Origin: Prosthecobacter debontii
GTDB lineage: Bacteria; Verrucomicrobiota; Verrucomicrobiia; Verrucomicrobiales; Verrucomicrobiaceae
Assembly: GCA_945860295.1 (NCBI GenBank)
Contig: CAMAQH010000016.1
Span: forward strand, 1-64,000
Direction: 5' to 3'
DNA: 64,000 bases
In this document: positions 1,957 to 39,016 of the stretch, in pieces
Layout: the number at the start of each line of letters is the position of its first letter
How positions within the stretch are numbered: the first letter of the stretch is position 1
The notes under the pieces: generated by a model
Told to the model about the DNA's origin: nothing
Seen by the model: the letters and a program-made list of their open reading frames with translations, nothing else
Databases searched by the model: none
Translations under genes and position numbers: made by a program

Positions 1957-4019
1957 CCTGGCTATTCCCACTCTATCTCCTCGGCGGTGCGGCCATCATC
2001 GGACCGATCCTGATGCATCTGCGTCGTAAGCCACCGCAGGACCGGGTGGAGTTCAGTTCGCTGATGTTTCTGGATGCGCAGACGCCGATGCCTGTGAGCA
2101 AGCGTCGCCTCGAAAACTGGCTGCTGCTTTTGCTCCGCTGTCTCGCGCTGCTGCTGCTCGTGCTGATGTTTGCGCGGCCTCTCTGGCGTTCGGAGAATGA
2201 AGACACTGTGTCGCAGAATCAAGCCACGGTGCTGCTTCTGGATAGCAGTGCGTCGATGCAGCGCAGTGATCTCTGGAAACAAGCTGTGGCTGCTGCGACT
2301 CAACGACTGGAGAAGATCGCCATCACAGATCGACTCGCTGTGGCGACGATGGATTGCGAGACGAAGCTGCTCTGGTCCTTCGATCAAGACAAGACCTCCG
2401 CCAGCACCCGCATCGCCACTTTGAAGCCACAACTCGCCGCGCTGAAGCCCGGCTGGTCTTCGACCGATCTCGGTCAGGCGCTGGTGGATGCCGCAGGTTG
2501 GTTTGGCAGCGCGCAGGGTCTGAGTGGATTGAGGAAGCGTCTCGTCGTCATCACCGACTTCCAGGAAGGCGCACGGCTCGATGCCCTGAGAGGCATGGTC
2601 TGGCCGGAAAACATCGCCGTTGAAGTGGTGCGTGTGGATGCGCCGAACGCCGACAACTTCACGCTCTCGCTCGTGGCGAGTGCTGAGGAAAGTGATGCGG
2701 GAAATCTTGCCCGCAAAGCCGAAGCTCCCACCACTCGTGTCCGCCTCAGCAACACTCGCGACTCCAATGCCAGCGACTTCAAACTCGCCTGGGACGAGGG
2801 CACCGAATCACCGATCACCGGCTATCTACCGCCTGGAGCCAGTCGAGTGGTCAGCCTTCCCGGCACCACAGGCATACTCAATCTCACTGGCGATGCCTGG
2901 GACTTCGACAACCTTATCTACATCGCTCCCTCGCAACCGAAGGTCGTGAAGATTGTCTTCATCGGCGATGAGAAGACGCGCAGCGAAGCCGCCTCACCTC
3001 TCTTCTATTTGAGCCGCGCCTTGCAGCAGACGCCAAGCCTGCGCCCTGAACTCACTGTCGTGCCGGAGAGCGTTGCGAACATTCCCGCGGGCACGGAGCT
3101 TGTCTTCATTTCAGGCGCACGACTCAGTGCGCCTCTCATGCAAAGCGTGCGCGCATCGGCAGAGAAGGGTGGCTTGGTCATCGCAGTAGTCACGCCAGAG
3201 ATGAAGGCGCAGGACCTAGAAGCACTCACGGGAGTCAGCGGAGTTCTGATCAATCCTTCCGATCCGACAGATCAGTCGGATCAATACCAGATGCTCGCTG
3301 AGGTGCAGACCGCGCATCCGCTACTGCGGCCCTTTGCTGATGAGCGCTTGCGCGACTTCACGAAGCTTCGCTTTTGGAAACACCGCCAACTCACGCTCCC
3401 AAAACAAGCGCCACTCGAAGTACTCGCACGCTTTGACCAAGGTGATCCTGCCATCCTCGCGCGGTCGCTTGGCAAAGGTCGAATAGTCTTGCTCACCAGC
3501 GGCTGGCATCCGGCAGATAGCCAGCTTGCTCTCAGCACCAAGTTCGTCCCGCTGCTCTACGGCTGGCTGGAAGCCGCAGGATTCCGCAACGAACAAGCTG
3601 TGTCGTTGTTGGTTGGAGATGTGCTTCCGCTTGAGGCAGCCACCTCGATCATGACTCCCGACGGTCAGATGCTCACTCCCAAAGCCGGCGACACCATTCG
3701 CGCTGAGACACCTGGCATTTACACCTTGGCCAAAGATCGCCTAATCGCCGTCAATATCGCGCCCGAAGAAGGACGCATTACCCCGATGCATCTGGCCAAG
3801 CTACGTGAACTCGGCGTGCGAGTCGAAGAAGGTGACGTGAAGGCCGCGGCCAGCGCCAAAGCCGAGGACAAAGAACGTCTTGCCATCACCGAGCAGGAGG
3901 CTCAGCAGCGTGCTTGGATATGGCTGCTCGGCAGTCTTCTCGCCATCCTTGCTTGGGAAACCTGGCTAGCTGGAAGAATCAGACAGGGAACACTTCAACC
4001 CGCGTATTCATCACCATGA
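1953..4019 (+). CDS. BatA-type membrane protein with vWA domain
   Basis: A 688-residue membrane protein. Two N-terminal membrane segments (about 3-20 and 55-75) enclose the BatA N-terminal motif (HLRRKPPQDRVEFSSLMFLD). A vWA domain with MIDAS residues DSSAS at 97-101 follows. The central region (about 330-560) looks like a flavodoxin/amidotransferase-like fold, and a last membrane helix sits near residue 660. The architecture matches the large BatA-like proteins of Planctomycetes and Verrucomicrobia, which are longer than the BatA and BatB proteins of Bacteroidetes. The start overlaps the DUF58 stop by four bases, and its stop overlaps the next start by four bases. The bulk of the protein probably lies outside the cytoplasmic membrane between the second and last helices. 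Confidence 0.88.
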   Translation: MTWLFPLYLLGGAAIIGPILMHLRRKPPQDRVEFSSLMFLDAQTPMPVSKRRLENWLLLLLRCLALLLLVLMFARPLWRSENEDTVSQNQATVLLLDSSASMQRSDLWKQAVAAATQRLEKIAITDRLAVATMDCETKLLWSFDQDKTSASTRIATLKPQLAALKPGWSSTDLGQALVDAAGWFGSAQGLSGLRKRLVVITDFQEGARLDALRGMVWPENIAVEVVRVDAPNADNFTLSLVASAEESDAGNLARKAEAPTTRVRLSNTRDSNASDFKLAWDEGTESPITGYLPPGASRVVSLPGTTGILNLTGDAWDFDNLIYIAPSQPKVVKIVFIGDEKTRSEAASPLFYLSRALQQTPSLRPELTVVPESVANIPAGTELVFISGARLSAPLMQSVRASAEKGGLVIAVVTPEMKAQDLEALTGVSGVLINPSDPTDQSDQYQMLAEVQTAHPLLRPFADERLRDFTKLRFWKHRQLTLPKQAPLEVLARFDQGDPAILARSLGKGRIVLLTSGWHPADSQLALSTKFVPLLYGWLEAAGFRNEQAVSLLVGDVLPLEAATSIMTPDGQMLTPKAGDTIRAETPGIYTLAKDRLIAVNIAPEEGRITPMHLAKLRELGVRVEEGDVKAAASAKAEDKERLAITEQEAQQRAWIWLLGSLLAILAWETWLAGRIRQGTLQPAYSSP

Positions 4020-7000
4020 TCGAAGCCGAAATACTCGAAGAGAAGTTCCGCGTGGTCATCGGCGCGTCTCGAACCATGCGACGTCAACGTTTCGGTATCC
4101 TGAGTTATCTGCTTTTAAGTGCTGCGTTGCTCATGTTGGCGGCACATCCTGAATGGCTGCCAAAGGCGCAGCAATCCCGCTTTGTGCCAGCGGTGTTGAT
4201 CGCGATTCTTTGTCTGGTCTTGCTTTCGTGGCTGCTGTTTCTTCGACGTGCCAGCAGCCTTGAAATGGCACGCCAGCTCGAAGCCAAAGATCCCAAGCTC
4301 AATGGCTTAGCCATCACCGCAGCGGAGTTGCTGCACAAAACGGAGCCGACATTTCTCGATCACCGCGTCATCTCTGAATTCACCGACTACTCGGCTACCC
4401 ATGATTGGAAGAAGCTGCTCTTCGGCTGGCGGCAGAAGGTCTGGGGATCGGCCGCCATGATTGCCGCATGTGTGCTGCTTGTTTTCAGCGTTACGAGTGC
4501 GGACCGTGCTGTGCGTGAGCATAACCAGCCAAAGTTCAAACTGGCTGAAGCTCAGATCACAACCACATCTGTAGAACTCTCCGCCACAATTACTCCAGGA
4601 GACACCGAGATCGAGCGCGGCTCACGGCTCGTCGTCGAGGCGAAGTTTGCCAAAGATGTGCCTGCTGAGGCCATGCTCATCGTCACCGAACTCGATGGCA
4701 AGGAACGCGATCGCATCCCCATGCGGCTGACGGTGGATGAAAAAGTCTTCGGCGGCATGATCGCGAAGGTGGACAAGGACGCGCGCTATCATGTCGAGTT
4801 CGGCGAGGGCAAATCCAAGCAGCACACGATCACGACTTTTGTGTGCCCGAAGTTGGAACAGGTGGATGTGAAGATCACTCCGCCGACATACACGAAGCTG
4901 CCGCCGAAGGAGATCAAGAACACGAAGAAGATCTCGGCGATGGAAGGCAGCTCGATTGACTTCAGTTTAAAGGTCAACAAGCCGCTCAAAGATGCGGAGC
5001 TTTTTGGCGAAGACAAAACGGTGCTCAAGCTCGTGCCATCGGCCAAAGATCAGACGATCCTCGTGGCGACGATGAAGGCGGAGAAGACGCAGAAGTGGCG
5101 CGTGCATCTCGTCGATGACAAGGAGCGAGCGAACAAGAACCCGCCTTGGATCAGCGTGACAGTGCAGTCGAACCAACTCGCCAAGATCGAGGTCGTCTTC
5201 CCAAAGCGCGATGTGCAGGTCTCGCAGATCCAGGAGTTGTCAGTCGAGGCGAAGGTTTGGGATGATCTCGGTGTGACGAAGAGTGGCGCGAGTTTCAGCA
5301 TCGCGGGCAAGACGAAGGACGTCATTTTCAAACACGGCGTCACTGAGCCCTCGAAGAAGCAGGATGTGAAGGAACTGCTCTCCATGGAACAGGAGAACGC
5401 GGAACCGCGTCAACTCGTGAGCTACCATTTCTGGGCGGAGGACAAAGGCCCGCAGGGTGAAGTGCGCCGTGCGATGAGCGACATGTTCTTTGCCGACGTG
5501 CGCCACTTTGAAGACATCTTCCGTGAAGGTGAATCGCCTCCAGGACCGCCAGGTAAGGAACCTAAAGGCGACACGGACAAGCTCGTCGAGCTGGAGAAGC
5601 AGATCGTGAACGCCACTTGGCGGCTCGTGCGTGGTACCAATTCGGGCAAGACCATGGAAGCCGTGGCACCTGATGCTGGAGTCGTGCAGGAGTCCCAGGC
5701 ATTGGCTTTGGAGCAAACTAAAGAGGCAATGGAAAAAGCCGAAGATGCCCAGATCAAGACCGCGCTCACCGAAGCCTGGAAGAGCATGAAGGACGCGCTC
5801 GATCCGCTCGGCATGGCGGCGGAGGAGAAGAAGCGCGCCTCTCTGAATCAAGCGCTGACCTTTGAGCAAAGCGCACTGGAGTGGCTGCATCAGGCGCAGA
5901 GCCGTGAGCACAAGATCATGCGCTCGAAGTCGTCGAAGAGCGCCAGTGGTAAACAAAAGCAGATGCAGAATCAGCTCATGGAGCTGGAAATGAAGCAGGA
6001 TGAGCAGCGTTACGAAGAAGAGAAGCAGGCAACCGAAGAACAAACCGCCGAGCAGCAGGAGAACCTGCAAGTGCTGAACCGGCTAAAGGAACTCGCACGT
6101 CGTCAGGAAGCCTTGGCCGAGAAGATGAAGGAACTGCAAAAGCAGCTCGATAAAGCCAAGACCGAGCAGGAGAAGGAGGAACTGCAAAACCAGCTCAAGC
6201 GTCTCGAAGAAGAGCAAAAGCAACTCGTGAATGATCTCGATGATCTCAAGGAGCGCATGGAGAAGCCCGAGAACGCAGCGAACATGGCAGATGCCAAACA
6301 GCAGCTCGAACAAACCCGCGAGCAGGTGAATGAAGCCGCCGAGAAACTGAAGGAGCAACATCTCGCCGAAGCCGCGAACTCCGCCACTCGCGCGCAACGT
6401 GAGCTGGAGAAGATGCAGGAAGATTTTAAAGAGAAGACCGCCAAGCGCTTTGGCGATGAGATGAAGCAGATGCGCCAGCAGGCACGTGAAGTGGCTGAGA
6501 AGCAGAAGCAGATCAGCGAGTCCCTGGAGAACCAGAAAACCGGTGAGCCCAGTGGAGATACCAGCGCTGATCTCGACAAGATGCTGAAGGGCGGCGAGGC
6601 CTCACGCCAGATCCAGGAGCAACAGGATAAAGTGGCAAAGCTGCTCGAAGACATGAAGCGGGTGAGCGAGCAAGCTGAGGGCAATAACCCGCTGCTGCAT
6701 CGTCGTCTTTACGAAGCTGTGCGCGAAGCCAAGACGGGTGGGCTTGAAGAACACCTCGACGAAGCGCGGATGCAGTCCCGTTATGGCCAACGAGTCGAAG
6801 CCCAAGACGCCGAACGCAAAGCCAACACGCTCGTGGATCAACTCCAGCAAGGCGTGGAGAATGCCGCCGAGAGTGTGCTCGGCAGCGAGACCGAAGCACT
6901 GCGGATGGCGCGGACGGAATTGGACAAGTTGATCCTAGAAGCCGGGCAGAAAGGTCAATCCAGTCAACCGGGTCAAGACGCCGAGAAAGCGCAGGCATCT

Positions 7001-7960
7001 GCAATCTCACCCAAAGCCGATAGCAAGCCTTCGGATGAATCTAAAGGTGAAGCGGAAGCCGCCGGTCAGCAGCCGGGAGACAAGCCCTCTGAAATGGCTG
7101 TGAAGGAACCTGAAGACAAAGGTTCGCCTTCAGGCCAGCCTTCGAAGCAAAGCCCGAAAGGTGATGCTAAAGGCGAGGGCAAGGAGCCTGGTCAGATGGC
7201 AGGCAATGAACTTGGACAATCCAAGGGCGGCGAACAGCCTGGGCTTTCTCTAGGCCGGGGACAAAAGCTCGGTGAGCAGCAAGCGAATGCACCTTCAGGT
7301 CAAGGAGGTCAAGAAGGCAAGCAGCCAGGACAAGGCAAGCAACCCGACGAGTCACCCGGCCAGATGGCTCAAGGTGAAGGTCAGGGCCAGGGGCAACAAC
7401 CTGGACAACCGGGTTCGCCTTCGGGGAAGGGTGTTCAATCGGCTGGAAGACCTGGAGCGTCTCCATCGGAGTCGAAGCAAGGCGGTGCGCAGCAACTTTC
7501 CGCCAATCGCTCGCCTCAGCAGCAGCCCGGCGGACGTGAGCGCAACAGCGCTGGAGGCGGAGGTGGTGGCGAGGACGGCGGTGCCTTCTTCTTTGATCAA
7601 GGTGTCGAGACCCAAGACACACGCCCGCTCAGTGGCAGCGGCTATGACCAATGGACGGATCGCCTGCGCAATGTGGAGGAGCTTTTGAGTCAGCCTGAAC
7701 TCCGTAACGAAGCCGCCAAGGTGCTCGACAATGCCCGCGCGATGCGGATCGATCACGAACGCAACGATGCTGCCCCACAGGTCGATCACTTGCAGATGCG
7801 CATTCTGAATCCGCTTGTCGAACTGCGAGATCGTGTGGCCGAAGAACTCGCCAAACGCGACACCAAGAACCCCATGGTCCCCGTGGACCGCGACCCTGTG
7901 CCGCCCGCGTTCCGCGAATTGGTGAAACGCTATTATCAGGAGCTCGGGAATGGTAATTGA
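4016..7960 (+). CDS. Giant DUF4175-like coiled-coil membrane protein
   Basis: The ATG at 4016 overlaps the previous stop (ATGA) and gives 1314 residues. An upstream in-frame ATG at 3914 would overlap the previous gene by about 100 bases and is rejected. Three membrane helices lie near residues 27-43, 56-76 and 140-160. A beta-rich region follows with WDDLGVTKSGASFSI and FWAEDKGPQGE, as in the DUF4175 family. Residues about 520-970 are Lys/Glu/Gln-rich heptads that predict long coiled coils. About 980-1200 is low-complexity Gly/Gln/Pro/Ser sequence, and a short folded domain ends the protein. It is probably an envelope scaffold of the MoxR/vWA complex. Alphaproteobacterial DUF4175 proteins are shorter, at roughly 850 residues. 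Confidence 0.85.
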   Translation: MIEAEILEEKFRVVIGASRTMRRQRFGILSYLLLSAALLMLAAHPEWLPKAQQSRFVPAVLIAILCLVLLSWLLFLRRASSLEMARQLEAKDPKLNGLAITAAELLHKTEPTFLDHRVISEFTDYSATHDWKKLLFGWRQKVWGSAAMIAACVLLVFSVTSADRAVREHNQPKFKLAEAQITTTSVELSATITPGDTEIERGSRLVVEAKFAKDVPAEAMLIVTELDGKERDRIPMRLTVDEKVFGGMIAKVDKDARYHVEFGEGKSKQHTITTFVCPKLEQVDVKITPPTYTKLPPKEIKNTKKISAMEGSSIDFSLKVNKPLKDAELFGEDKTVLKLVPSAKDQTILVATMKAEKTQKWRVHLVDDKERANKNPPWISVTVQSNQLAKIEVVFPKRDVQVSQIQELSVEAKVWDDLGVTKSGASFSIAGKTKDVIFKHGVTEPSKKQDVKELLSMEQENAEPRQLVSYHFWAEDKGPQGEVRRAMSDMFFADVRHFEDIFREGESPPGPPGKEPKGDTDKLVELEKQIVNATWRLVRGTNSGKTMEAVAPDAGVVQESQALALEQTKEAMEKAEDAQIKTALTEAWKSMKDALDPLGMAAEEKKRASLNQALTFEQSALEWLHQAQSREHKIMRSKSSKSASGKQKQMQNQLMELEMKQDEQRYEEEKQATEEQTAEQQENLQVLNRLKELARRQEALAEKMKELQKQLDKAKTEQEKEELQNQLKRLEEEQKQLVNDLDDLKERMEKPENAANMADAKQQLEQTREQVNEAAEKLKEQHLAEAANSATRAQRELEKMQEDFKEKTAKRFGDEMKQMRQQAREVAEKQKQISESLENQKTGEPSGDTSADLDKMLKGGEASRQIQEQQDKVAKLLEDMKRVSEQAEGNNPLLHRRLYEAVREAKTGGLEEHLDEARMQSRYGQRVEAQDAERKANTLVDQLQQGVENAAESVLGSETEALRMARTELDKLILEAGQKGQSSQPGQDAEKAQASAISPKADSKPSDESKGEAEAAGQQPGDKPSEMAVKEPEDKGSPSGQPSKQSPKGDAKGEGKEPGQMAGNELGQSKGGEQPGLSLGRGQKLGEQQANAPSGQGGQEGKQPGQGKQPDESPGQMAQGEGQGQGQQPGQPGSPSGKGVQSAGRPGASPSESKQGGAQQLSANRSPQQQPGGRERNSAGGGGGGEDGGAFFFDQGVETQDTRPLSGSGYDQWTDRLRNVEELLSQPELRNEAAKVLDNARAMRIDHERNDAAPQVDHLQMRILNPLVELRDRVAEELAKRDTKNPMVPVDRDPVPPAFRELVKRYYQELGNGN

Positions 7961-10286
7961 GTCGCATATGACCCTTGCCCTGCAACATCCTGAGCGGCTT
8001 TGGCTCGTCGCTGCGATCCTCGCGGTGGCGGCGGTGGTCCTTTTGTGGGGCTATTGGAAATCACCGCTGCGGGGCTTTACCAAACTGGCGGCGGTGTCCT
8101 GCAAGCTGGGTGCGTGGGGATTGCTGCTCTTTTGTCTCACAGATCCGGTTTGGTCGCGCAAGCAACCAAAGACGGGCGAGAACGAAGTCGTGATCGTGGC
8201 GGACAACAGCGCCTCATTGCAGGTGGCCGAAACTTCCGGTGGTGTGACTCGTGGTGAATCCATGCGCGAGGCGCTCGGCAAGGATGCCAAGTCACCGCCA
8301 TCCTGGCTGGATGAACTTGGTCGCATGTTTCGCGTGAAGACACAGATCGTTGATGAGCGCCTGCAAAACGTGCCTGATTTCAGCAAGCTGGACTTCACGG
8401 GGGCGAAGTCGGAGCTTGAGAGTGCCCTGAAAACTTTGGGCGGTGGTGGTGCTGGCAATCGCACAGCGGCGGTTGTGCTAATCACCGATGGTGCGGTGAC
8501 TGATAAGTCCGATTCGACCGATCCCAAGACGAGCAACGTGCCGGTCTTCCCTGTGCTCGTTGGCAAAGACGAACCCGCGCCCGATCTGCGCATCGTGGAG
8601 CATTCGATTACCCAGACTTCGTTTGAGGATACGCCCGTCACGATCACGGCGCGCATTGCAGGCACGGGCTTCGTTGGCAAAGAGGTGGCGGTCGTGGTTC
8701 TCAATGAAGCCGGGATAGTTGTTATCACGGAGAAGGTGGAAATCGCAAAGGATGGCGAAGCACAAACGCTGCGACTTAAGGTGCCTGCGGTGAAGCCGGG
8801 TATCTCGTTTTATCGACTCGCAGTGAAGGGCACTGCACCTGAGGTGACGCTGGCGAATAACGAACGCCACATTGCCGTGGATCGTGGCGCGGGGCCGTAT
8901 CGGGTGCTGTATGTTTCGGGTCGGCCGAACTGGGAGTATAAGTTTCTTCGCCGTGCGCTGGCGGGCGACACGGAGGTGCAGATACCATCCTTGATTCGTA
9001 TCGCGAAGCGCGAGCCGAAGTTTGAATGGCGTGGCCGCACAGGGGAAACGAGCAATCCGCTGTTCCGTGGCTTTGGCGATCAAGGTGTGGCGCAACGCTA
9101 TGATCAACCGGTGCTCACGCGACTCGGCACGAAGGACGCGAAGGAACTCAGTGCGGGCTTTCCGAAGACAGCGGAGGAACTGATGGGCGAGTATCGGGCG
9201 ATCATTCTGGATGACATCGAGGCGGCGTTTTTCACGCAGGAGCAGATGAATTTGATGGAGCGTTTCGTCAGCGAACGCGGCGGTGCTTTACTCATGCTCG
9301 GTGGGCAGGAAAGCTATCAGCAGGGCGGCTACGATAACACACCTGTGGGGCGGATGCTGCCGGTATATCTGGATCGCATTTCGCAGTCACCAGCCGTCGA
9401 GAATGGGCGATTCGATCTAACGCGCGAGGGTTGGCTGGAGCCGTGGACGAGAGTGCGTGCGGGACGTGAGGATGATGAAAAGCGGCTAACCGAGATGCCG
9501 GGCTTCTTTTCTGTGAATCAGACCTTCTCTATCAAACCAGGCGCGAGTGTGTTGGCAACGATCAAGGCAGGCGAAGAGGCTACCACGTATCCAGCTCTCG
9601 CGGCGCAGCGTTTTGGCGAAGGTCGCGTGGCTTCCGTGATGATCGGCGACCTCTGGCGCTGGGGGATGCGCGATGAAGACGCACGCAAGGATCTCGACAA
9701 GGCCTGGCGTCAGCTCATGCGTTGGCTGGTCGTGGATGTGCCGGATAAGATTCAGTTCACGGCGGTGCCAGATGCTAAGCGGATGAAGCTTGAGGTGCGC
9801 GTGCGTGACGAATCCTTCCTAGCCAAGGATGATGCCGTTGTGAAAATCGAGGTCACCGGACCAGGTGGAAGGAAGAGCGAGTTGTTTACCGAGCCGAGCT
9901 TGAAGGAAGCCGGGTTATTTGAAGCAGAGTTCTACTCGCGCGAGACGGGCGCATATCGGGCTGTGGCGACTGTTATTTTAGCCGCAGAGATCGCAAAGGT
10001 TGAGACGAAGACAACGGCAACGGGGTGGGTTCATGATCCGTTAGCGGCGGAGTTTGCTTCGTTGAAGCCAGGGCGTGAATGGGCTGATCGAGTCGCAAAA
10101 GAGTCGGGGGGGCGGGTGCTGAGCTTGGCCGACTTACTGAATCTGCCGGAGATTTTGAAGGACATCCGCGTGCCTGTGGAAGAGACGATCACGACGCCTT
10201 TCTGGCACGCCCCATGGGTGTTTGCCGTCGTGCTTGGACTGCTGAGTGCGGAGTGGTATTTGAGACGGAAAGGAGGCATGGCCTGA
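7950..10286 (+). CDS. vWA / amidotransferase-like membrane protein
   Basis: A 778-residue protein. AGGAG at 7938-7942, seven bases upstream, supports the ATG at 7950, which overlaps the previous gene by 11 bases. An ATG at 7968 is the alternative. Helices at about 18-36 and 46-64 precede a vWA domain with DNSAS at 85-89. From about 315 a class I amidotransferase-like fold is suggested by RVLYVSGRPNWEYKFLRR and by LLMLGGQESYQQGGY near 447. No catalytic Cys-His pair is evident, so this is probably a non-catalytic fold. A final helix lies near 752-770. The topology places the large middle part in the periplasm. It belongs to the coupled MoxR operon and looks like a distant relative of the BatA-like protein two genes upstream. 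Confidence 0.87.
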   Translation: MVIESHMTLALQHPERLWLVAAILAVAAVVLLWGYWKSPLRGFTKLAAVSCKLGAWGLLLFCLTDPVWSRKQPKTGENEVVIVADNSASLQVAETSGGVTRGESMREALGKDAKSPPSWLDELGRMFRVKTQIVDERLQNVPDFSKLDFTGAKSELESALKTLGGGGAGNRTAAVVLITDGAVTDKSDSTDPKTSNVPVFPVLVGKDEPAPDLRIVEHSITQTSFEDTPVTITARIAGTGFVGKEVAVVVLNEAGIVVITEKVEIAKDGEAQTLRLKVPAVKPGISFYRLAVKGTAPEVTLANNERHIAVDRGAGPYRVLYVSGRPNWEYKFLRRALAGDTEVQIPSLIRIAKREPKFEWRGRTGETSNPLFRGFGDQGVAQRYDQPVLTRLGTKDAKELSAGFPKTAEELMGEYRAIILDDIEAAFFTQEQMNLMERFVSERGGALLMLGGQESYQQGGYDNTPVGRMLPVYLDRISQSPAVENGRFDLTREGWLEPWTRVRAGREDDEKRLTEMPGFFSVNQTFSIKPGASVLATIKAGEEATTYPALAAQRFGEGRVASVMIGDLWRWGMRDEDARKDLDKAWRQLMRWLVVDVPDKIQFTAVPDAKRMKLEVRVRDESFLAKDDAVVKIEVTGPGGRKSELFTEPSLKEAGLFEAEFYSRETGAYRAVATVILAAEIAKVETKTTATGWVHDPLAAEFASLKPGREWADRVAKESGGRVLSLADLLNLPEILKDIRVPVEETITTPFWHAPWVFAVVLGLLSAEWYLRRKGGMA
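10271..10276 (+). promoter_or_regulatory. Ribosome binding site deciding the start at 10286
   Basis: AGGAGG lies nine bases before the ATG at 10286, which itself overlaps the previous TGA. This supports starting the caspase-like gene inside the copy of the dispersed repeat, rather than at the in-frame ATGs at 10307 or 10325. Confidence 0.55.
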
Positions 10287-11260
10287 TGAGGAATGACGAA
10301 ACCCTAATGACGAATGACGAAGGTATGTGGAAGCTCGTGGGTCTGTGCTTGCTGGTGTTTGTCTTCATGATGCCCCTCGGTCTGGCCAATGCAGCGCAGA
10401 GGGATGTCGAGGTATTGATCGTCAGCGGTGCCCCAGGTGATGACGAATATACCGAGAAGTTCGAGAAGCAGGTGACAACGTGGAAAGCAGCTTGTGAGAA
10501 GTCGGGCATCGCGGTCCAAGTCATTGGCAAGGACAAGCATGACGCGGAGGCGCTGGAGGATGCTTTGAAAAAGGCTGCGACCAAGCCAACCGGCCAGATG
10601 TGGCTTGTGCTCATCGGGCATGGGACTTTTGATAATCGCGAGGTGAAATTCAATCTGCGTGGACCTGATGTCTCAGCGAAGCAACTCGCGGCGTGGTGTC
10701 AGCCGGTTCAGCGGGAGATGATCATCATTGGTGGCGGTTCATCCAGTGCTGGATTCCTCCAACCACTGGCGGGGAAGAATCGGATCATCGTCACGGGGAC
10801 GAAGAGCGCCGATGAAATCTACTACACACGCTTTGGTGAGTTCTTCGCGCCGGCCATTGCAGGAGATCTGACGGCGGACTTGGATAAAGACAAGCAGGTG
10901 TCTATTCTGGAAGCCTTCCGCCACGCCAGCAAACTAGTCGCCGAGTTTTACGAGAAGGAAGAGCGCATCTCCACCGAGCACGCACTCATTGAGGACAATG
11001 GTGACGGTGTGGGCACGCGCGCGGAGCTTTTCAGCGGTGAAACTAAAGAATTCAAAGATGGCAAACGTGCGAGCCAGATCTCTCTGGTGCTGAGTGAGGA
11101 GGAGATGAAACTCAGTGATGCCCAGAGGCAGAAGCGAGATGAGATGGAGCGTAAACTTGAGACGTTGAAAGCTAAGCGACCAGAGATGAAGGAAGAACTC
11201 TATTACAGCCAGATTGAAGCATTGCTGCGACAGTTGGCTGCTGTGTATGGCTCAAACTAA
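10286..11260 (+). CDS. Secreted caspase/legumain (clan CD)-like protein, catalytic Cys apparently missing
   Basis: A 324-residue protein. The ATG overlaps the previous stop (ATGA). The first dozen residues are encoded by a copy of the dispersed GAATGACGAA repeat, followed by a hydrophobic leader (about 15-37). The fold resembles clan CD peptidases: a strand ending in LIGHGTFD with a His at 112, a second strand IIIGGGSSSAGF at 146-157, then VTGTKSADE. In active members the second strand reads DxCxSG. Here serines occupy the nucleophile position, so the protein is predicted to be inactive or altered. Residues 198-209 (DLDKDKQVSILE) fit an EF-hand-like calcium loop. It closes the MoxR operon and meets the next gene tail-to-tail with overlapping stops. 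Confidence 0.72.
   Translation: MRNDETLMTNDEGMWKLVGLCLLVFVFMMPLGLANAAQRDVEVLIVSGAPGDDEYTEKFEKQVTTWKAACEKSGIAVQVIGKDKHDAEALEDALKKAATKPTGQMWLVLIGHGTFDNREVKFNLRGPDVSAKQLAAWCQPVQREMIIIGGGSSSAGFLQPLAGKNRIIVTGTKSADEIYYTRFGEFFAPAIAGDLTADLDKDKQVSILEAFRHASKLVAEFYEKEERISTEHALIEDNGDGVGTRAELFSGETKEFKDGKRASQISLVLSEEEMKLSDAQRQKRDEMERKLETLKAKRPEMKEELYYSQIEALLRQLAAVYGSN
10289..10322 (+). repeat. Dispersed repeat copy 1 (GAATGACGAA family)
   Basis: The stretch contains GAATGACGAA, the linker ACCCT, then AATGACGAATGACGAA. The same words recur at 53985-54018, 54944-54973 and 55023-55052. This copy lies at the start of a coding region and supplies its first codons (translated as RNDETLMTNDEG). Confidence 0.6.
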
Positions 11261-33443: not shown

Positions 33444-34712
33444 TCAAATACGTCTGGCCTCAGACACGTCGAGCTTCATGATTTTCCAGGCGGACTTGAC
33501 GGGTGCCACGGTGACTTTGGCGGTGTAGCGGTTCACGCGAGTATGAGCGTGACCCCAGTGGCCGACGGTACCCATCGCCGTCCATTGGCACTCGGAGATG
33601 AAGCCTGAGCTATCTGGATCAGGCTGCACGCTGATGATGTCGGCACTGAATTCGCTGATGGTGACGCGGGTGCCTTCACGGCCTTCGAGTGTGAGTGCCT
33701 GGATGGTCTCTAGATATAGTTTCCTCAAAAGCTCACCCTCCACGCTAAGTGCTAGGACATCATAAATCTCGGACTCGGCCCGGTGATCGAAAGCACGGTA
33801 AACATTGCGCAGTAGTGGCGTGAGTATCTTTTCAGCCGCCTGCTTATTCGTCACTGGTGGGATGTCGGCGCGGCCAGCGATGTTTACATTGAGCAGTGGC
33901 CAACTGAGTATGGCACCCAATATCCACATGGCTAAAAACGGCATGGAGCCGCCTGGTAGATGATGCTGGCGGATGCGGATGAAAGAATAGAATAAAAGTC
34001 CTCCGAACACCCAAATGATACTGGCTAGCGGGATGACTACGGGGGCTGAAACGTTGATGCTAGGAACCTCGGCTAAGGGGGGCGGCATGGGCAGGTGCCC
34101 TTTGCTTTTCCAAGTGGTCTTGGGGCGTGCTGCGCTGACTTCAAGCATCTCTGATTTGGGTCCGTAAAAAACTCGGATGGGCAGTGTCTGGAGGTCTTCG
34201 ATGAAGCCCGACCATTCGATGGTGATTTGATCGGGATTTGGTGGTGTGGGGATTTCCCAAATGAAGCCGATCATGGCTTCGTGAGTGGGGACCGCTGCTC
34301 CAATCTCTAGTGGCAGTGTGGCTCCGGGTTTACCTTTGATGATAGAGACGCCGAGGAAGCTGCCATCGGCGGGTTGTGTGCCGACATTAAGGTGACACCA
34401 TTCTTGAGTCTGCTTGGCTGCGGCATCTGTCAGAGATTGCTGTGCGGCTGCATCCAGCACGGCTGGAACTTCCTTCAGCGGGTTCAGCCAATGCAGCACG
34501 CGAGTGGCGTCAATGAGTGCCTCATAACGCACCTGGTAGGATTCCACATAGAGGTAGCCATGCGCGACCTTTTCATGAGTCGCGATGGCGGCATGTTCTT
34601 TGCTCTTATTTAGCGTCTGCGCTGATGCAGACGCAAGGCAGAGACAGATGACAGCGCACCGCAGCGCCCATTTCAAAGCGGGCCCTTTCACAGCGCCCAA
34701 GGCTTCCTCCAT
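33444..34712 (-). CDS. Hypothetical membrane protein (422 aa)
   Basis: A leader (CAVICLCLASASAQ) is followed by a periplasmic beta-rich domain (about 45-225) and two membrane helices (about 232-255 and 268-288). A second folded domain (about 300-420) resembles an NTF2-like fold (LRNVYRAFDHRAESEIYDVL, WTAMGTVGHWGHAHTRVN). No named family is recognised. The ATG at 34712 overlaps the broken Gfo/Idh gene by 25 bases. A GTG at 34691 makes a GTGA overlap with that stop and is a good alternative start, giving MKGPALKWALRC. Translational coupling to the upstream gene is likely. Confidence 0.72.
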   Translation of the reverse strand: MEEALGAVKGPALKWALRCAVICLCLASASAQTLNKSKEHAAIATHEKVAHGYLYVESYQVRYEALIDATRVLHWLNPLKEVPAVLDAAAQQSLTDAAAKQTQEWCHLNVGTQPADGSFLGVSIIKGKPGATLPLEIGAAVPTHEAMIGFIWEIPTPPNPDQITIEWSGFIEDLQTLPIRVFYGPKSEMLEVSAARPKTTWKSKGHLPMPPPLAEVPSINVSAPVVIPLASIIWVFGGLLFYSFIRIRQHHLPGGSMPFLAMWILGAILSWPLLNVNIAGRADIPPVTNKQAAEKILTPLLRNVYRAFDHRAESEIYDVLALSVEGELLRKLYLETIQALTLEGREGTRVTISEFSADIISVQPDPDSSGFISECQWTAMGTVGHWGHAHTRVNRYTAKVTVAPVKSAWKIMKLDVSEARRI

Positions 34713-36132
34713 TCTTTGGAAAGCAGTTTCGACGCGGCTTCATTGGCCTCGATTTTTTCCATCTGTGGATTCCACTTCAAAGCAACGCTGTCAGTGCGAA
34801 TGGCGATATTGGCAAGATGCGCGATGCTGATGCTGCGATGGGAAATTTCGATCGGCGCTGCGGTGATTTTACCGTCATAGATGCAGCTCAGGAAGTTATC
34901 CGTGTGTTCCTTGCTTTCGTAGAGATGTATTTCGTTAGGGCCGATTTTTTCACGAAGAATAGCAGGATCGCTGGCAGAGATTTTGCCGCGATTCACATAG
35001 ATCCATTTTCCAGCATCGCCTTCAAAGAGAATGCCCACATGATCAAAGGGCTTCTTGCCAGCGCTAGGCTGCATGGCCGCTTCGATCTCAGGCATGAGTT
35101 TGTGCTCTGGGCTGGCGACGTGCATGATGACGCCACTTTCATAGACGCACTCAAAGGAGAACTCGGTGGCGGTGTTGTAGAGAGCGTCTTTGTCACGCTT
35201 GCCGGAGATGGCGCGCAGTTCTTGGGGGCCTGTGTGATCGGTGCCCATGGCCCATTGGGCGATGTCGATGTGATGCGCTCCGAAGTCAGTGATCATGCCG
35301 CCACTGAAGTTGTAGTTATGCCGCCACTGAAGTTGTAGTTATGCCGCCAATTCAATGGCAGCAGGGCAGGGCGGTAGTCTATCTCTTCCGCTGGACCGAG
35401 CCACATTTCATAGTCAAAATCGGCTGGCACAGGTGCCTTTTCCGTCCTGTCGGCCATGCCATTCCAGTTCGAGTGACCGCCCGGCAATCCGACGCGCACG
35501 CGCTTGAGTTTACCGATGCGTTCATTGCGCACCATCTCACAAGCCATGCGGAAATAAATATCACTGCGCTGCTGACTACCTGTCTGCCAAGTCACGCCCG
35601 CTTTGGCCACTTCATCTGCCATAAGACGGCCTTCGGCGATGTTTAAGGCGAGCGGCTTTTGCCCGTAGATATGCTTGCCTTTGCGTGCTGCATAAATGGC
35701 CATGTAAGCGTGCCAATGATCAGGTGTGGAGATTTGCACGGCATCGAGATCTTCCTTCTCCATCATCTCGCGAAAGTCGGAGTAGGCAGCGCAGGCCCTC
35801 ACGGACTTGTTGGCAGCCTGAGAGTAGTGAGCATCAATGATTTTCTTCCCAACTTCACGACCGCCGGTTTCTTTGCCATCGTAGCTGTAGTGGCCGTATT
35901 CCTTCATCGGATCAGCCACGGCGATGACCTGGCACTTTTCATTATTCAAGAATGATGGCGTCCAGTCACCCGCGATGGTGCCCCAGCCAATAGCACCGAC
36001 CGTGATGCGCTCCGATGGCGCGGGACGGCCAGCTTTTCCAAAGACGGATGAAGGAACAATGGTCGGGAAACCCAGAGCAGCAGCACTGCTGCTGAGGAAG
36101 CGGCGGCGGGAAAAAGTAATGGTTCGGTTCAT
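34688..36132 (-). pseudogene. Tat-exported Gfo/Idh/MocA oxidoreductase split by a 23-bp tandem duplication
   Basis: Two minus-strand pieces belong to one gene. 36132 to 35293 encodes 279 residues (Tat leader SRRRFLSSSAA, Rossmann GAIGWGTIAG, QISTPDHWHA, GQKPLALNIAEG). 35296 to 34688 encodes 202 residues starting MITDFGAHHIDIAQWAMG. At the join a 23-bp sequence occurs twice (35295-35317 and 35318-35340). Removing one copy joins NYNFSGG to MITDFGAHH in frame and gives a normal 473-residue protein. As it stands, translation ends ITTTSVAA and stops. The two parts keep full similarity, so the break is very recent, is reversible, or is an assembly error. Confidence 0.9.
35295..35340. repeat. 23-bp direct tandem duplication breaking the Gfo/Idh gene
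   Basis: Two perfect 23-bp copies (35295-35317, 35318-35340) are followed at 35341 by the first nine bases of the unit (ATGCCGCCA). The single-copy ancestor therefore had nine-base direct repeats 23 bp apart, an ideal substrate for slipped-strand duplication. Confidence 0.97.
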
Positions 36133-36278: not shown

Positions 36279-36370
36279 CACTCCCCCTGTTGCCAGGGCT
36301 TGGTATTTTTTGAAATCCCTGCCCTACTGGCTGCGGATACTCAGACTGCCTTCCTACATCCTACACGACT

Positions 36371-36553
36371 ATGCCCAAAAGAACCTATCAAGCCTCCAAA
36401 CGCACCCGGAAGCGTCAGTTCGGTTTCCGCGCCCGAATGAAGACCGCCAATGGCCGCGACATTATCCGTCGTCGTCGCCGTCAAGGCCGCAAGCGCCTCG
36501 TGCCAGTCGGTGTGGAAGTCCATTACAAGCGCCACGTCCAGCAGCACGCTTAG
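36371..36553 (+). CDS. rpmH: 50S ribosomal protein L34
   Basis: A 60-residue Arg/Lys-rich protein of the large subunit. [20 protein letters not shown], then [21 protein letters not shown], match L34 throughout. Most bacterial L34 proteins end near residue 44-46. Here about 14 additional residues follow ([16 protein letters not shown] region), a C-terminal extension. It heads the conserved rpmH-rnpA-yidD-yidC order usually found near the replication origin. rnpA starts 30 bases later. Confidence 0.96.
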
Positions 36554-36583
36554 TGCTGGGGATTCTCGGCGTCTCCCTCAACT

Positions 36584-36949
36584 ATGCGCCTGCCATCTCG
36601 CCTTCATCTGAAGGAGTCTCGCGACTTCGCCTGCATCAAGGCGAATGGCAGGAGTCAAGCGGGCCGGTATTACGTCCTGGCCATGTTAAAGGTAGAAACG
36701 CTGACTGAATTTCAGTTTGGCCTAGTCACTGGAAAGCGGCTGGGCAATGCTGTCACAAGAAACCGACTCCGCCGACAGATGCGTGAAATCATTCGAGAGC
36801 ATCGGGCAGAAATAGCCCCCGGCTGGCAGTTTGTCACCATTGCCCGCTGGCGTGCTCCTGAGGCTGACTATGCTGATCTGGAGCAGGACTGGGTTAAGCT
36901 GGCGAAGCGCCAGGGACTCTTCTCGAAACCCACGATCTCAGTTCCATGA
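36584..36949 (+). CDS. rnpA: Ribonuclease P protein component
   Basis: A 121-residue basic protein that binds the catalytic RNase P RNA to mature tRNA 5' ends. The RNR signature is RNRLRRQMREIIRE (about 64-77), preceded by GLVTGKRLGNAV. Order and spacing after rpmH are canonical. Its stop overlaps the yidD start by four bases (36946-36949). The start at 36584 gives MRLPSRLHLKESRDF, typical of the family, where the LKxSxDF segment precedes the first strand. Confidence 0.95.
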   Translation: MRLPSRLHLKESRDFACIKANGRSQAGRYYVLAMLKVETLTEFQFGLVTGKRLGNAVTRNRLRRQMREIIREHRAEIAPGWQFVTIARWRAPEADYADLEQDWVKLAKRQGLFSKPTISVP

Positions 36950-37188
36950 GATTGGTTGTACGCATACTCATTCGTGGTTATCAGCGTTTCATCTCTCCTG
37001 TCATTCATTTCATCGGTGGCCCAGGTTCGGGCTGTCGTTTCGCTCCGACTTGTTCGGAATATTTTCTTCAAGCCGTGGAAAAACACGGCTTTTTTCGTGG
37101 TGCATGGTTCGGAACGCTCCGCATCCTCCGCTGCCAACCCTGGGGTGGTCAAGGTCACGACCCCGTACCAGAAAAAGCAAAACCTTAA
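36946..37188 (+). CDS. yidD: Membrane protein insertion efficiency factor
   Basis: An 80-residue protein assisting YidC-mediated membrane insertion. IRGYQRFISPVI, then GCRFAPTCSEYFLQAVEKHG and RCQPWGGQGHDPVP are the conserved elements, including the three cysteines. An amphipathic N-terminal helix probably attaches it to the inner membrane. It is coupled to rnpA by a four-base overlap and lies 16 bases before yidC. Confidence 0.96.
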   Translation: MRLVVRILIRGYQRFISPVIHFIGGPGSGCRFAPTCSEYFLQAVEKHGFFRGAWFGTLRILRCQPWGGQGHDPVPEKAKP

Positions 37189-37204
37189 ATTTTAAAAACA
37201 CCTC

Positions 37205-39016
37205 ATGGATCGTAAAGCTTGGCTCGTTATCGTCCTCTGTACCGTCGGCATTGGTATCAATGCATGGTTCGCTAGTAACCAGCAGCCTGCTCAGCCGCTG
37301 CCCACCACCAAAACGGTAGCGACAGCACCCGCCGCTACGGTGGCTGCACCAGTCTCTGCTGTTGCAAATGCACCAACGGCCCCCGTGCCGTCTGCTGCCG
37401 GCAGCACCCCTGAAGAAACACACACGCTCACTCAGGGTAGCGTAACGTGGCATTTCTCTACCAAAGGAGCAGGTGTCGTCAAATCGGTGCTGGCTGGCAC
37501 CGACCAGATCACATTGAACGAGTTCGGACGCGAACCCATCGGCGCATTGCGTCGTGAGGCAGCGGGCAATGACGCCGTCGCCTACAAGATTACCGCCAAG
37601 TCTGACAAGAGTATTACCTTTGATGGAACGGCTCAAGATGGCATCAGCATCCGCAAGACCTATGCTTTAACCGAGGGTGAAAAGTCAGACGATCACCTCA
37701 TCACACTGAATGTGACGCTAACCAATACCAGCGCGGCTGCCTTCAAGTCTGAAGAAATTTATCTCTATGCGGGAGCCGCGAACTCCATGAGTCCTGATGA
37801 AGCTTTGAAGCCCAGTTTCTTTTGGAACGATGCAGGAGACGCAACTCAAAAGGACACCAATGCTTTCGGTGGTGGGTGGTTTTCCACCGAACAAAAGGAG
37901 ATGCGCTCCAGTCATCCGCATCTGCGCTTCGGTGGTGTGATGAGCCGCTTCGATGCCACCATACTAAATCACATCAGCAAGGGTGATTCGATGGGCAAGC
38001 CTGGAAAGATTTGGGGCACACGCTTCCTCATTGATCATAGCAAAGACAAATTCAAGGACATGTCGGCAGCCGCCAATGATCATGCGATTGAGGCCGCTGT
38101 CAGTCTGCCACCCGTCGAGTTGGCACCCTCAGCTAGTTTGTCAGAAGACTACGAGATCTATGTTGGCCCAAAGGAATACCACCGACTAACACTCCTCGGC
38201 GGTCAGCGTGAAGAAGTGATGTTCTATGGCATGTGGGGCTTCATCAGCCGCATCCTGACTCAAGTGATGCGCTGGATGCATGATGTCAGTGGTAACTGGG
38301 GCGTGGCCATCATCCTGCTCACACTCTGCATCCGCACCGTCCTTTGGCCGCTCCAGTCGAAGGCTCAGTCCTCCATGAAGCGCATGGGCCTACTGGCTCC
38401 GAAGATGAAAGAGCTACAGGATAAGTATAAAGACGACCCGACCAAGCAGCAGACGGAAGTCATGAAGATGTACAAGGAGTATGGAGTTAACCCCGTCGGT
38501 GGTTGCCTGCCGATGATGTTGCAGATTCCCATCTTCTTCGGCTTTTACAGCGTGCTTCAAAACGCTGCCGAGTTGCGTGGTCAGCCCTGGATGTGGGTGA
38601 AGGATCTCTCACTGGCAGACACGATTCACACGCTGCACTTCTCATCGAGTCTGCCGCTCGTCGGCACGCACTTCGACATCAATCCGCTGCCACTCATTAT
38701 GGGCGTCACCATGATCCTTCAGATGAAGCTCACACCGCAGCCTGCAACCGTGGACAAGAGCCAGAAGATGATGTTTACCATCATGCCCTTCTTCTTCCTC
38801 TTCATCTGCTATAACTTTGCCGCAGCCTTGTCCCTCTACTGGTCCACCCAAAATATCTTTGCCATCTTCCAGAGCTGGATCATGAAGCTCTACATGAAGG
38901 ACCCTGTGTTGGAAAAAATCGCCATTCAGCCCAAAGCAAATGCCCCTAAAAACCCAGCGAATCCAAACGACAAGGACAAGAAGACCAAGCCCAAAACGCC
39001 GAAACTTGGTGGTTAG
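37205..39016 (+). CDS. yidC: Membrane protein insertase YidC
   Basis: A 603-residue insertase. An N-terminal helix (about 5-20), an Ala/Pro-rich linker and a large periplasmic beta-domain (about 75-340) precede the conserved core: GNWGVAIILLTLCIRTVLWPLQ (helix 2 region with the functional Arg), EYGVNPVGGCLPMMLQIPIF, and three further helices to about 565. The C-terminal tail is Lys/Pro-rich (NDKDKKTKPKTPK), as in species where YidC binds ribosomes. It inserts membrane proteins alone or with SecYEG, and belongs to the rpmH cluster. Confidence 0.97.
   Translation: MDRKAWLVIVLCTVGIGINAWFASNQQPAQPLPTTKTVATAPAATVAAPVSAVANAPTAPVPSAAGSTPEETHTLTQGSVTWHFSTKGAGVVKSVLAGTDQITLNEFGREPIGALRREAAGNDAVAYKITAKSDKSITFDGTAQDGISIRKTYALTEGEKSDDHLITLNVTLTNTSAAAFKSEEIYLYAGAANSMSPDEALKPSFFWNDAGDATQKDTNAFGGGWFSTEQKEMRSSHPHLRFGGVMSRFDATILNHISKGDSMGKPGKIWGTRFLIDHSKDKFKDMSAAANDHAIEAAVSLPPVELAPSASLSEDYEIYVGPKEYHRLTLLGGQREEVMFYGMWGFISRILTQVMRWMHDVSGNWGVAIILLTLCIRTVLWPLQSKAQSSMKRMGLLAPKMKELQDKYKDDPTKQQTEVMKMYKEYGVNPVGGCLPMMLQIPIFFGFYSVLQNAAELRGQPWMWVKDLSLADTIHTLHFSSSLPLVGTHFDINPLPLIMGVTMILQMKLTPQPATVDKSQKMMFTIMPFFFLFICYNFAAALSLYWSTQNIFAIFQSWIMKLYMKDPVLEKIAIQPKANAPKNPANPNDKDKKTKPKTPKLGG

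Follow-up and report, generated by a model that had tools for sequence, protein, structure and literature searches.

The question raised by this locus is why a gene of the Gfo/Idh/MocA family, whose members are characterized by one intact reading frame, is present as two overlapping ORFs around a perfect 23-bp tandem duplication. The window, i.e., the whole 64-kb stretch of DNA that was analysed, belongs to a draft genome of 4.68 Mb in 75 contigs with a completeness of 95.3%. Judged by the Gfo/Idh gene, the nearest records are Verrucomicrobia and Verrucomicrobiaceae MAGs, MAGs labelled Prosthecobacter and Brevifollis gellanilyticus. The interruption is likely to be a recent slipped-strand (microhomology-mediated) tandem duplication, which arose in one lineage and probably inactivated the gene. 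All features of the locus are listed in Table 1.

Table 1. Features of the interrupted Gfo/Idh gene, its repeat array and its downstream neighbor (window coordinates).
Feature	Position	Strand	Source
Downstream gene, 422 aa	33444..34712	-	ORF list
C-terminal fragment ORF, 202 aa, begins MITDFGAHHID	34688..35296	-	ORF list, Pfam
N-terminal fragment ORF, 279 aa	35293..36132	-	ORF list, Pfam
ATGA, start of the second ORF overlapping the TGA of the first ORF	35293..35296	-	
23-bp unit, copy A (3' copy in gene direction)	35295..35317	-	Tandem Repeats Finder, tandem scan
23-bp unit, copy B, identical to copy A	35318..35340	-	Tandem Repeats Finder, tandem scan
Nine-base partial copy, TGGCGGCAT in gene direction, codons W-R-H	35341..35349	-	

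The array at 35295-35349 was reported by Tandem Repeats Finder with a period of 23, 2.4 copies and 100% matches, and together with the tandem scan this confirmed the two perfect copies and the nine-base start of a third that had been described in an earlier note. From the span given there (35293-35349) the end could be retained, while the start takes in two extra bases which form the end of the new TGA. Both 23-bp units, which read ATGCCGCCACTGAAGTTGTAGTT on the plus strand, are still identical, and an offset of 23 gives 32 consecutive matches within the array, which is not a product of chance. No other perfect tandem with a period of 12-150 and at least two full copies is present in the 64-kb window. 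In about 800 kb, comprising the window and the fetched loci, 25 perfect tandems of this period range were counted, many of them in loci fetched by means of the 23-bp pattern, so that this number is not a fair background rate. Positions 10282-10321 of the window additionally hold a 21-bp tandem, which is imperfect and contains a 7-bp repeat (ATGACGA); this tandem extends across the stop of ORF 7950-10286 and is located within ORF 10214-11260.

As 23 is not divisible by three, the copy number determines the reading frame: the protein has 473 aa with one copy and 279 aa with two, and the single intact frame of the family is absent in the two-copy allele. Removal of one unit yields 1422 bases, i.e., 473 codons and a stop, and the resulting protein matches its orthologs from end to end, which verifies the restored 473-residue frame of the earlier note. 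In the two-copy allele the 279-aa ORF ends with eight out-of-frame residues after the S-G-G of the motif, followed by TGA. This ORF carries the Rossmann domain PF01408 (E 1.4e-13, 52 bits vs. a cut-off of 24) and then the first part of the C-terminal alpha/beta domain PF19051 (profile positions 36-84). The 202-aa ORF comprises profile positions 178-253 of the latter, which thus occurs in two pieces, one per ORF and each above the cut-off. According to Pfam and to a model of the ortholog L036 (mean pLDDT 75, low around residues 245-259), the break cuts within the C-terminal domain and not between domains; in the model it lies just before the helix 273-286, after the strand 209-213 and before the strands starting at 295. 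The 279-aa fragment is devoid of most of the C-terminal domain and of the segment DFGAHHID, which presumably has a catalytic role in the Gfo/Idh protein. The enzyme encoded by the two-copy allele is most likely inactive.

The product of the undamaged gene is a predicted sugar or glycoside dehydrogenase of the Gfo/Idh/MocA family. Its best NCBIfam profile is NF058561 (glycoside 3-dehydrogenase), against which the 279-aa fragment alone scores 150 bits vs. a curated cut-off of 750, and the 202-aa ORF has no match to this profile. For the first 264 residues, the solved chains closest in sequence are those of the Alistipes glucoside-3-dehydrogenase AL3 (PDB 8tdf/8tdh); the 202-aa part has no sequence match in the PDB. 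8tdf is also the highest-ranking structural match of the ortholog model, and the agreement with structures of the 8tdf type is only moderate (TM 0.55-0.60, 20% identity). In the whole genome 48 matches to PF01408 above the cut-off were found in 4.7 Mb, representing a large set of Gfo/Idh proteins.

The original state of the gene was deduced from its relatives. In a search of the genus, with one genome per species, a match of some kind was obtained in 47 of 48 genomes including the genome under study. An ortholog match extends across the site in 38 of the 47 other genomes, the remaining nine, in which the search met only paralogs, a gene truncated by a contig end, or nothing, having been left out, and the 23-bp insert is absent in all 38. 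In 37 of them the query span exceeds the matched one by exactly 23 bases; G018, the 38th, is matched in two pieces, which leave an identical shortfall of 23 bases. On a broader scale, orthologs were collected by dropping matches below 55% identity or with E values above 1e-30 and by merging sequences identical over a 300-base stretch. All 43 of the other sequence groups in which the motif can be read have one copy, two of these (L034 and L070) resembling paralogs or remote members; no motif was seen in three further groups truncated by contig ends. A single frame running from residue 8 or earlier up to residue 473 was matched in 35 of the 44 ortholog groups outside the window, eight others are cut by contig ends, and one (L035) has a frame break of its own. 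On this comparison of sequences, the single-copy form is the ancestral one. The nearest relative found, the MAG locus L035, carries a one-base deletion of its own near the C-terminus (near 4316), which may be real or a draft error. Comparisons of the one-copy frame, of dN/dS values and of the downstream gene are based on 23 hand-chosen relatives.

The one-copy gene itself contains a plausible substrate for the duplication. The earlier note had proposed nine-base direct repeats in the ancestor, and these were indeed found: TGGCGGCAT occurs twice, 23 bp apart, and represents the only exact direct repeat of at least 8 bp at offsets of 10-100 in the one-copy gene. The partial copy of the array corresponds to the upstream arm of this ancestral repeat. 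In the one-copy window 63,954 duplications of 23 bp are possible; breakpoints with a junction homology of at least 9 bp number 10, which is the number yielded by the array site alone. Direct repeats of up to 13 bp are found elsewhere in the window without any duplication (45 of at least 9 bp at offsets of 10-60), and therefore a repeat of such size does not force a slip. We infer slippage as the route: during replication the growing strand would have re-paired with the wrong nine-base copy, whereby 23 bp would have been copied again, and with these the frame would have been lost, leading via eight wrong residues after S-G-G to the TGA. A hairpin favoring slippage was considered as well and rejected, as the DNA-fold z values of the two strands (-0.71 and -0.12) are no better than those of neighboring controls (-0.82 and 0.64).

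The repeat arises from the codons of the protein motif WR-x6-GG, in which W-R-H is encoded by TGG CGG CAT and S-G-G-M by (AG)T GGC GGC AT(G). At an offset of 23, 11 of 47 WR-x6-GG sites in the collected loci share at least 6 bp, or 10 of 46 without the duplicated site, with one of these ten (L092) sharing different letters; at each of six control offsets this is true for 0 of 47. Nine bp are shared at one other site of the 46, only 4 bp at 20 of the 47 sites, and 2 or 3 bp at 12. The sites are related by descent, and the comparison with the control offsets is consequently a description and not a test.

Both halves of the gene look as if they had been under purifying selection on the branch leading to the window, judged from codon comparisons. 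With L035 and L036 as the other members of a trio, the window branch has a dN of 0.024 and a dS of 0.69, corresponding to a ratio of 0.035 over 403 codons, with 0.021 in the N-terminal and 0.057 in the C-terminal part. Two other trios gave overall ratios of 0.050 and 0.055 and C-terminal ratios of 0.122 and 0.125; the latter are within the range of the intact relative L036 (0.181), and the branch estimates are noisy and in part unusable owing to near-saturation at synonymous sites, with one pair giving no valid dS and one intact gene a ratio of 3.8. In an alignment of 24 sequences, only one residue of the window departs from otherwise invariant columns. The selection apparent in both halves suggests that the break is recent. 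Its date is only loosely constrained, because synonymous sites are almost saturated between the window and its closest relatives (dS 1.17 to L035 and 1.35 to L036). There is thus good support for the proposal that the mutation is very recent and had a nine-base repeat as its slippage substrate: the duplication was found in no relative examined, the halves are undecayed, and the repeat is unique of its kind in the gene.

The alternatives have to be weighed against these observations. An artefact of assembly, binning or library preparation, in which the population carries one copy and the second unit was introduced by a mis-joined overlap or by PCR slippage, is regarded as unlikely. The source genome is a draft, the MAG locus L035 is frame-broken too, by its different one-base deletion, which indicates that such drafts can hold indels, and PCR slippage would use the identical junction homology. 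A mis-joined overlap, however, is not expected to coincide with a junction homology of 9 bp, which is available to a fraction of only 0.00016 of the possible 23-bp duplications, and 47 of the 48 PF01408 hits are located in open frames of at least 323 aa, so that the sequence is not broadly indel-prone, even if this check might overlook a break lying further along one of these genes. At 55 bp, the array would fit within an ordinary short read. The least credible alternative, with a very low probability, is a functionally split or recoded gene, whose product would be a two-piece enzyme translated via the ATGA, or some full-length protein obtained by frameshifting. The ATGA overlap at 35293-35296 and the conservation of both halves would agree with such a gene, but the break cuts the C-terminal domain, no relative examined has a split gene, and a recent origin of the break explains the conserved halves equally well. 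In a scan for the classic form of the -1 slippery heptamer (X XXY YYZ), none was found in the frame overlap and five elsewhere in the gene.

A reversible phase switch, in which one-copy (ON) and two-copy (OFF) cells interconvert by means of the frame-breaking 23-bp spacing, had also been put forward in the earlier note; we consider it very improbable. The geometry of the array would permit an exact reversion, the codons of WR-x6-GG favor homology at an offset of 23 (at least 6 bp in 10 of 46 other sites), and capsule genes of pneumococci are reported (PMC4022640) to vary by spontaneous duplications within genes. Against a switch, the reversion of inserts of up to nine bp is given in PMC4022640 as no more than about 1e-5. 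The copy-number variants expected among relatives of a contingency locus are lacking, since the two-copy allele is found in none of the 38 other genomes of the genus, each representing one species, in which an ortholog extends across the site, and the 9-bp repeat is not conserved, being present at one other site of 46. A phylum-wide pattern search for three TGGCG at 23-bp spacing, which requires TGGCG in every copy and misses other duplications, gave matches in 28 of 387 sampled genomes, the own genome included, with 47 places listed; among the 30 loci examined, inside which some of the remaining 17 places are located, only the locus of the window encodes a Gfo/Idh protein. The idea of a switch is therefore not borne out. 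With 48 PF01408 hits in the genome, the gene is moreover one of many of its kind, and we know of no advantage of switching this enzyme. There is only a very slight chance that the codons of the motif (TGG CGG ... T GGC GG) form a recurrent and exactly reversible slippage site, at which the gene has been caught in the off state. If one-copy and two-copy cells were to coexist in nature, this would represent a phase-variable sugar dehydrogenase in Verrucomicrobia; one search of an open-access library gave no paper combining "Prosthecobacter" and "phase variation". The pattern search additionally revealed minisatellite-like arrays of perfect 23-bp tandems in other families of the phylum (L148, L150, L151, L152, L153, L154, and L170). 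Several of these hold TGGCG and are similar in sequence, and no Gfo/Idh match was found there.

At E 0.001, neither Pfam nor NCBIfam matched the 422-aa downstream protein, and a homolog of it lies downstream of the Gfo/Idh gene in 23 of 23 orthologous loci examined. As had been noted earlier, the downstream gene overlaps the stop of the broken gene; the overlap amounts to 25 bp when translation is taken to begin at the first ATG. An ATG at -24 is found in 10 of 22 loci (L035 was omitted, as its stop differs), and a GTG at -3 is an alternative possible start. The ATGA between the two fragments has a geometry known for translational restart and is thus a possible termination-reinitiation point. 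Ribosomes may restart there, and translation could continue downstream; the coupling to the downstream gene, which according to the earlier note may be affected, need therefore not be lost. A scan for promoters and terminators around the gene gave results near chance (1 vs. 0.8 expected; 2 vs. 1.1).

Two loci harbor the Gfo/Idh gene and the downstream gene as one in-frame fusion (L014, 48-2918, minus strand; L052, approximately 2980-5850, plus strand), with a fused ORF of 956 aa in L014 and an open frame of 963 codons in both, which suggests that the two conserved neighbors work together. Divergently placed genes are found at 36370-39016 of the window, which judging by their sequence and translations resemble rpmH, rnpA, yidD, and yidC.

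The locus provides a clean natural example of a conserved protein motif that, through its codons, can give rise to the very direct repeat by which its gene is broken. Microhomology-mediated tandem duplications have been described in fungi. The present case resembles them in that the duplication is exact and that the unit to be duplicated was bordered by short direct repeats, and differs in that it is a single case on a bacterial chromosome. In Streptococcus pneumoniae, duplications within ORFs cause phase variation of the capsule, as reported for the type 3 locus, cap8E and tts (Waite et al., 2001, 2003, as cited in PMC4022640). In contrast to the capsule genes, neither reversion nor several alleles nor a selected surface phenotype are seen here, and the gene affected encodes a predicted sugar or glycoside dehydrogenase. 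Common to both systems is a short tandem duplication within an ORF which shuts the gene off and which could in principle be removed exactly.
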